Positions 28,594-30,052 of a stretch of DNA of 64,000 nucleotides are shown here, piece after piece. A program made the translations under genes and the position numbers. The notes below the pieces were generated by a model, which was not told the origin of the DNA, did not search any database, and saw only the letters and a list, made by a program, of their open reading frames with translations. Source of the stretch: Rhodococcus sp. KRD162 (GTDB lineage Bacteria > Actinomycetota > Actinomycetes > Mycobacteriales > Mycobacteriaceae); contig NZ_JABFAU010000011.1 of the NCBI RefSeq assembly GCF_017168335.1, positions 389,585 through 453,584 of the forward strand, written 5' to 3'. Position 1 is the stretch's first letter. Every line of letters begins with the position of its first letter.

Positions 28594-28613
28594 GTTGGTG
28601 GTGTGTGGGGTGG
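28594..28613. other. Breakpoint between accessory DNA and the nuo operon
   Basis: Left of this stretch no NuoL-like sequence is found. From 28613 the translation matches the conserved NuoL interior ([10 protein letters not shown]). The few codons before it (Leu-Leu-Val-Val-Cys-Gly-Val) resemble the NuoL segment they replace only loosely, so the joint lies somewhere in about 20 bases. No target duplication or insertion sequence end is visible. Confidence 0.65.
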
Positions 28614-30052
28614 AGGGCGTCGGGCTCGCGTCGTACCTGCTCATCGGGTTCTGGCAGCACAAGCCGTCGGCAGCATCGGCCGCACGAAAAGCCTTCGTGG
28701 TCAACCGGGTCGGTGATATCGGCCTCGCCATTGCGCTGATGATCATGTTCGTGAATTTCGGATCGGTGCAGTACGACGTCGTGTTCGCCGGAATCGGTAC
28801 CGCCGGTGAGTCGGTCGCGACGGCGATGGCGCTGATGTTGCTGTTGGCGGCCTGCGGCAAGTCGGCCCAGGTGCCGCTGCAGTCGTGGCTCGGTGATGCG
28901 ATGGAGGGCCCGACGCCGGTGTCGGCTCTCATCCACGCGGCGACCATGGTCACTGCAGGTGTGTATCTCATCGTGCGCTCCGGCCCGGTGTTCGAGGCGT
29001 CGCCGGTCGCCCGAGCCGCTACCGTCACCGTCGGTGCCATCACGTTGCTGTTCGGTGCCGTGATCGGCTGCGCCAAGGACGACATCAAGAAGGCGCTCGC
29101 GGCGTCGACGATGAGCCAGATCGGGTACATGGTGCTCGCCGCCGGGCTCGGCCCGTCCGGATACCCCTTCGCCATAGCGCTGCTGCTCTCGCACGGGTTC
29201 TTCAAGGCCGGTCTGTTCCTGGGGGCGGGCTCGGTGATGCACGCGATGAACGACGAGACCGACATGCGACGGTTCGGCGGGCTTCGCGCCGCGATGCCGA
29301 TCACGTTCGCCACGTTCGGCCTCGGCTTCCTCGCCATCATCGGGGTACCACCGTTCTCCGGCTTCTTCGCCAAGGACCCCATCATCGAGGTCGCGTTCGC
29401 GGCCGGGGGAGCGGAGGGTGTGGTGCTCGGCTGCGTGACGTTGCTCGGTGCGGGACTGACGGCGTTCTACATGACCCGGGTGATGCTGATGACATTCTTC
29501 GGGCCGAAACGATGGGCGGCGCAAGCACATCCGCACGAGGCACCGCCGACGATGACCGCCCCGATGATCGTTCTGGCCATCGGCTCGGTCGCTGCGGGTG
29601 CCTTCCTCACGGTGGGCGGACGCCTCGAGACGTGGCTGGAGCCGGTGGTGGGGTCGGCGCACGAGGAGCACACGATACCCGCCTGGGTCGTGACGGTCGC
29701 AGTGCTCGTGGTGGTGCTCGCGGGCGCGAGCGTCGCCTACCGCAAGTACATCGCCCACGAGGTTCCCGAGACACCACCGGAGAATGTGTCGGGCTTGACC
29801 AGAGCGGCGCGAGTGGATCTGTACGGAGATGCCGTCAACGAGGCCGTGTTCATGCGTCCGGGCCAAAAACTCACGCGCACATTGGTACTCGCCGACACAG
29901 CGGGCATCGACGCCGTCGTGGACGGGGTGGGGAGATCGATCGGAGGCGTATCGACTCGATCTCGGCGCCTGCAAACCGGATTCGTTCGGTCCTATGCGCT
30001 GGCGATGTTCGCCGGGGCTGTTCTCGTCGTGCTGATGGTGGTGGTTCTGTGA
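28613..30052 (+). pseudogene. nuoL: NADH-quinone oxidoreductase subunit L, 5'-truncated
   Basis: The reading frame carries ~479 residues of NuoL, a proton-pumping membrane arm subunit of respiratory complex I, out of the usual ~620-640. Conserved blocks remain: the Gly-Phe-Trp-Gln-His-Lys-Pro helix start, [20 protein letters not shown], and the long C-terminal transverse region. The first ~150 residues, several transmembrane helices, are absent. No proper start or ribosome binding site precedes the conserved part; a GTG at 28526 gives an unrelated leader. It overlaps nuoM as GTGA. In this form it is unlikely to work. Confidence 0.85.

Follow-up and report, generated by a model that had tools for sequence, protein, structure and literature searches.

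Why a core respiratory gene should appear to begin halfway through its coding sequence, directly beside plasmid-type DNA, is the question raised by this locus. The window, i.e. the whole stretch of 64,000 nt analysed here, comprises bases 389,585–453,584 of scaffold C13 (500,331 bases) in a draft genome of 5.9 Mb and 109 contigs. The features on which the argument turns are listed below, in window coordinates.

1–127, minus strand: end of a transposase gene (insertion-sequence end); an identical 127 nt open contig C84 (C84:1-127, 100%)
128–28,612, no strand assigned: plasmid-type DNA between the nuoL halves (NZ_CP023721.1 match, Pfam)
28,412–28,612, minus strand: last part of the plasmid block, which aligns over 201 columns with the end of contig C9 (C9:18-205) at 87% identity
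28,606–28,612, plus strand: TGGGGTG at the join point, present in the plasmid end and, displaced by one base, in a relative's intact nuoL
28,613–30,052, plus strand: 3' part of nuoL, NuoL profile positions 142–611 (ORF list, NuoL profile)
30,049–31,581, plus strand: nuoM, intact (NF004500, 800.8 bits, cut-off 550)
31,581–33,146, plus strand: nuoN, intact (NF004441, 766.7 bits, cut-off 477)

The two halves of nuoL

NuoL coding sequence runs in the window from 28,613 (GAG GGC GTC GGG..., profile position 142) to a stop codon at 30,050–30,052. It is overlapped by 4 bases by nuoM, which starts with GTG at 30,049, and nuoM and nuoN overlap by a single base, both with full-length family scores above the curated cut-offs. 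The first-pass annotation, which had described a nuoL entered in mid-gene and followed by intact, overlapping nuoM and nuoN, is borne out in these respects. It had put the missing part at about 150 codons, close to the approximately 144 found here, 143 of which (the first 143 codons of the gene) are contained in a 5' piece that lies on the same scaffold but outside the window, 101–529 bases to its left, and ends at C13:389484. It had likewise reported no N-terminal NuoL piece in the 28.6 kb at the left, and there is indeed none within the window; the piece escaped that reader because the window begins just after a run of N. The search of the assembly that it proposed for the nuoL 5' part and nuoA–nuoK recovers the nuoL 5' piece together with nuoD, E, F, G, H, I, J and K, collinear and directly left of the window on C13, in a scan that began at nuoD.

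The two pieces are complementary. Against the curated NuoL model NF005141 (615 positions), the 5' piece covers positions 3–140 and the 3' piece positions 142–611, with one position missing between them. When nuoL from locus L083, a close relative that bears the label Rhodococcus ruber IEGM 1391 (its best-matching segment in the nuoL 3' part is 93% identical), is used as query over the whole genome, it matches only C13:389287-389484 (query 1–198) and C13:418190-418446 (query 194–451), with no third piece found, and base-level comparison places the two pieces within 2 nt of abutting. The missing part of nuoL is thus present in the assembly and complements the fragment in the window, as an artefact would have it. 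Judged by their sequences, the halves belong together, and the chromosome very probably has a single nuo operon of the ordinary kind in which nuoL is uninterrupted.

What separates the halves is probably an assembly artefact, in which the end of a plasmid was chimerically joined to the nuoL 3' part and then scaffolded beside the nuoL 5' part. A short-read assembly would have broken within nuoL; the end of a plasmid contig of 28.6 kb, extending from an insertion-sequence repeat to an apparent physical end, would have been joined to the nuoL 3' part at a 7-base similarity; and scaffolding would then have set the nuoL 5' piece at its left with a 100-N placeholder. The falsity of the join, the pipeline step responsible and the free, linear state of the plasmid are what we infer from these sequences. 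Chimeric joins and placeholder-gap scaffolding are faults of a known kind in short-read draft genomes.

The gap of 100 N

Exactly 100 N (C13:389485-389584) lie between the nuoL 5' piece and base 1 of the window. Since all 7 N runs in the loci of this genome that were scanned (826,001 bases, with slight overlap of loci) are exactly 100 long, the length is that of a placeholder, which here stands at the very break, as in an artefact. A run of 100 N is what some scaffolders insert where the length of a gap is not known. Three of the other gaps were compared with relatives. In G009, which has coordinates identical to those of the genome of L083 and was counted with it as a single relative, the flanks lie 50 bases, 27 bases and about 15 kb apart; in G023 the second gap corresponds to 28 bases and the third to about 16 kb, the N-adjacent bases of the first being unaligned. 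The third gap is C45:144110-144209 (L075:4110-4209), and much of the interval of about 15 kb matches contig C95 in four pieces at 69–87% identity, so that C95 would, from the relatives, appear to belong in this gap. Because its flanks are some 15–16 kb apart in two relatives and C95 matches the interval, the join at C45 is suspect too. As these flanks are about 15 kb apart in G009, N joins in this assembly are no proof of adjacency, which, together with the uniform length of the runs, favours the artefact at nuoL.

The sequence on either side of the nuoL gap points the same way. Two relatives (L083 and L084) can be aligned with the nuoL 5' piece through its last base, leaving zero foreign bases before the N run. 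This end is unique, as are the sequences flanking the six other N runs (12 of 12, with uniqueness checked within about one-seventh of the genome), whereas the window side of the nuoL gap is a repeat. Foreign DNA is joined to the right half of nuoL and is absent from the left half before the N run; a real insert would be expected to leave a foreign stub on the nuoL 5' end, and the lack of one favours the artefact. For comparison with such a stub, the two repeat-ended contig pairs (window/C84 and C9/C91) each share 127 nt.

The same clean 5' end, along with the placeholder run and the repeat that bounds the block on its far side, weighs against a real event in which end joining at TGGGGTG inserted a plasmid, or one arm of a plasmid, into a double-strand break in nuoL. 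Such a capture, which would leave complex I inactive or reliant on two separate NuoL fragments, is unlikely, yet the geometry of the break speaks for it: the nuoL pieces all but abut, as would be expected of a real insertion but not of a random coverage gap, and this counts against the artefact.

The plasmid-type block and its edges

Together with the N run, 28.6 kb of plasmid-type DNA keep the nuoL halves apart. The Rhodococcus sp. H-CA8f plasmid NZ_CP023721.1 (301,603 bp) matches, at a single place, 64% of window positions 1–25,000 at 93.9% identity, over the span 128–19,510, and megablast against the plasmid collection gives no match over 19,511–28,640, which leaves about 9 kb of the block (19,511–28,411) unmatched in that collection. 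By Pfam, the block encodes an ABC transporter, an alpha/beta hydrolase, a GtrA protein, a kinase, an HTH protein and hypothetical proteins with no family. GC content is alike along block and chromosome (0.585–0.647 in 2-kb steps), and composition is consequently no marker of a boundary. Two frames in the block may be mentioned in their own right. The protein at 27,982–28,431 has no Pfam match. The single minus-strand frame at 19,498–20,787 combines HTH_3 with a sub-threshold C-terminal match to an AbiEii nucleotidyl transferase, and is possibly a fused toxin-antitoxin pair; elsewhere, the H-CA8f plasmid has two neighbouring but separate genes for an HTH regulator and an AbiEii/AbiGii-family protein.

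The left edge of the block is a repeat. Window positions 1–127 are annotated 'transposase' in 11 plasmid records (H6–H16), and from the start of its OrfA we take this transposase to be of IS3 type. The 127 nt are shared exactly between the left edge of the window and the head of C84, just as another exact 127 nt are shared between the tails of C9 and C91. A k-mer of 127 is a usual largest choice in de Bruijn assemblers, and with k near 127 contigs end in this manner at repeats. The right edge, in turn, resembles a contig end, stopping 17 nt short of the first base of C9, and the C9 end has no other match within its own genome. Because the match of C9 to the H-CA8f plasmid begins at base 28 of that record, two assemblies run out at about one place. 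A block with a repeat end at its left edge and homology to the C9 dead end at its right favours the artefact.

These edges also bear on whether nuoL has taken up a mobile element equipped for its own integration (an island, an integrative element or a prophage), partly hidden in the N run. The insertion-like geometry and the transposase end at the left edge would suit such an element, but the 127-nt transposase end is not seen again at the right edge, which matches the end of a contig (C9), and no integrase, recombinase or phage structural family was found among the 12 block proteins scanned, a subset of the block ORFs, beside an N run that could hide further sequence. The reading is highly improbable. 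A phage origin of the junction itself was considered and set aside, the sole match in the phage collection falling on the nuoL side.

We read 28,412–28,612 as a linear plasmid's terminal region. A whole linear plasmid captured end to end by microhomology end joining, with its ends buried and complex I split or dead, is a distinctly doubtful proposition; it would have set the C9 end beside the nuoL 5' part, and both are indeed dead ends in the assembly. Any plasmid capture at this site, if real, would be an unusual instance of its kind, with a core respiratory gene as the target. The telomere motif GCTNCGC is absent from the plasmid end in the window and from C9, where the assembly may lack the outermost bases, although it is present in all four reference plasmid ends (pBD2, pREL1, pRHL2 and pRHL3), and the last 260 bases of the H-CA8f record contain one copy on the reverse strand. 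Neither the plasmid end in the window nor the C9 end contains a perfect hairpin of at least 7 pairs, so that the GCTNCGC motifs and terminal palindromes of actinobacterial invertrons are both lacking at the plasmid end. Among 400 other genomes of the family, the end region finds only matches of 29–47 bases, in four genomes; an exact-pattern search of genome_contigs and viral_contigs returned none, and the plasmids gave only 5 weak matches. Proof of a telomere by motif or by recurrence was accordingly dropped, and with no GCTNCGC and few family matches the linear plasmid end falls short of proof, which tells against this part of the artefact; the circular listing of the H-CA8f record likewise speaks against a linear end. 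Elsewhere on C9, 2.2 kb (L037, C9:1978-4196) are 100% identical to the linear plasmid NZ_CP075341.1 of Rhodococcus ruber ZM15, which suggests a recent exchange between plasmids.

The junction, complex I and known systems

The join itself, at 28,612/28,613, contains no N. This speaks for plasmid capture and against the artefact since, given the 127-mer signature, the join must have had support from some reads or from a gap-closing step. The similarity at the junction is also rare by chance: a 7-base run at an offset of no more than one was matched by only 256 of 200,000 random chromosomal breakpoints, with a relative's nuoL standing in for the intact gene of the strain. Against capture, TGGGGTG is a common word in the window (14 occurrences, 9.3 expected), and the similarity fits template switching by an assembler or in PCR as well as it fits microhomology end joining in the cell. 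Capture is opposed further by the relatives. In every one of the 36 further genomes from the genus, alignment at nuoL begins only at window positions 28,601–28,612 and the join is absent, the small matches elsewhere than nuoL being 67 bases in G001 and 42 bases in G008; and all of the 80 named loci compared, the best-ranking 80 among 595 confirmed, have an open frame across the break site. Absence of the join from the genus and continuity of the frame in these loci favour the artefact.

Of the two possibilities first raised, a rearrangement or an assembly join, the join is therefore the better supported, from the N run, the complementary halves and the repeat edge, and a real rearrangement the less so. 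The further suggestion that the strain lacks complex I finds no support, as it depends on a placeholder-gap scaffold junction at the end of a plasmid contig, and another 100-N join in the same assembly also appears to skip a contig. There is no good evidence for a loss of complex I, and such a loss should not be claimed. As an artefact, the locus calls for caution: annotation of the scaffold would yield a broken nuoL and a chromosomal island of 28.6 kb, neither of which is probably true, and would assign plasmid genes to the chromosome.

A second set of related genes occurs on contig C85 (L009, C85:1-9271), with family matches of NuoA, H, K, L, M and N type. As a rescue copy of complex I it was rejected, the set being divergent and not a copy of the split nuoL; it may be a second complex or foreign DNA. 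The ends of C85 have no 127-mer in common with the stretches of its own genome that were compared, and within 6895–8742, on the minus strand, the contig carries a long frame with His/Gly-rich repeats.

The nuo genes follow the order D-E-F-G-H-I-J-K-L-M-N of the nuoA–nuoN operon of Rhodococcus and its relatives, with the expected families, and differ from it in that nuoL is here divided by a scaffold join. The block has gene content in common with the H-CA8f plasmid, whose record is listed as circular. At the plasmid end in the window the first gene lies 181 bases in, which resembles the 232–233 of the linear plasmids pREL1 and pRHL2 and differs from the 652 of pRHL3 and from pBD2, with a gene listed from base 1, and both this end and that of C9 differ from these four in the motif described above. 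Unlike the usual chimeric misassembly, this join also coincides with the end region of a plasmid and so looks like a biological insertion. With known chimeric and placeholder misassemblies it nevertheless shares repeat ends with overlaps of k length, gaps that are all 100 N long, joining at a short similarity and flanks that are collinear in relatives.
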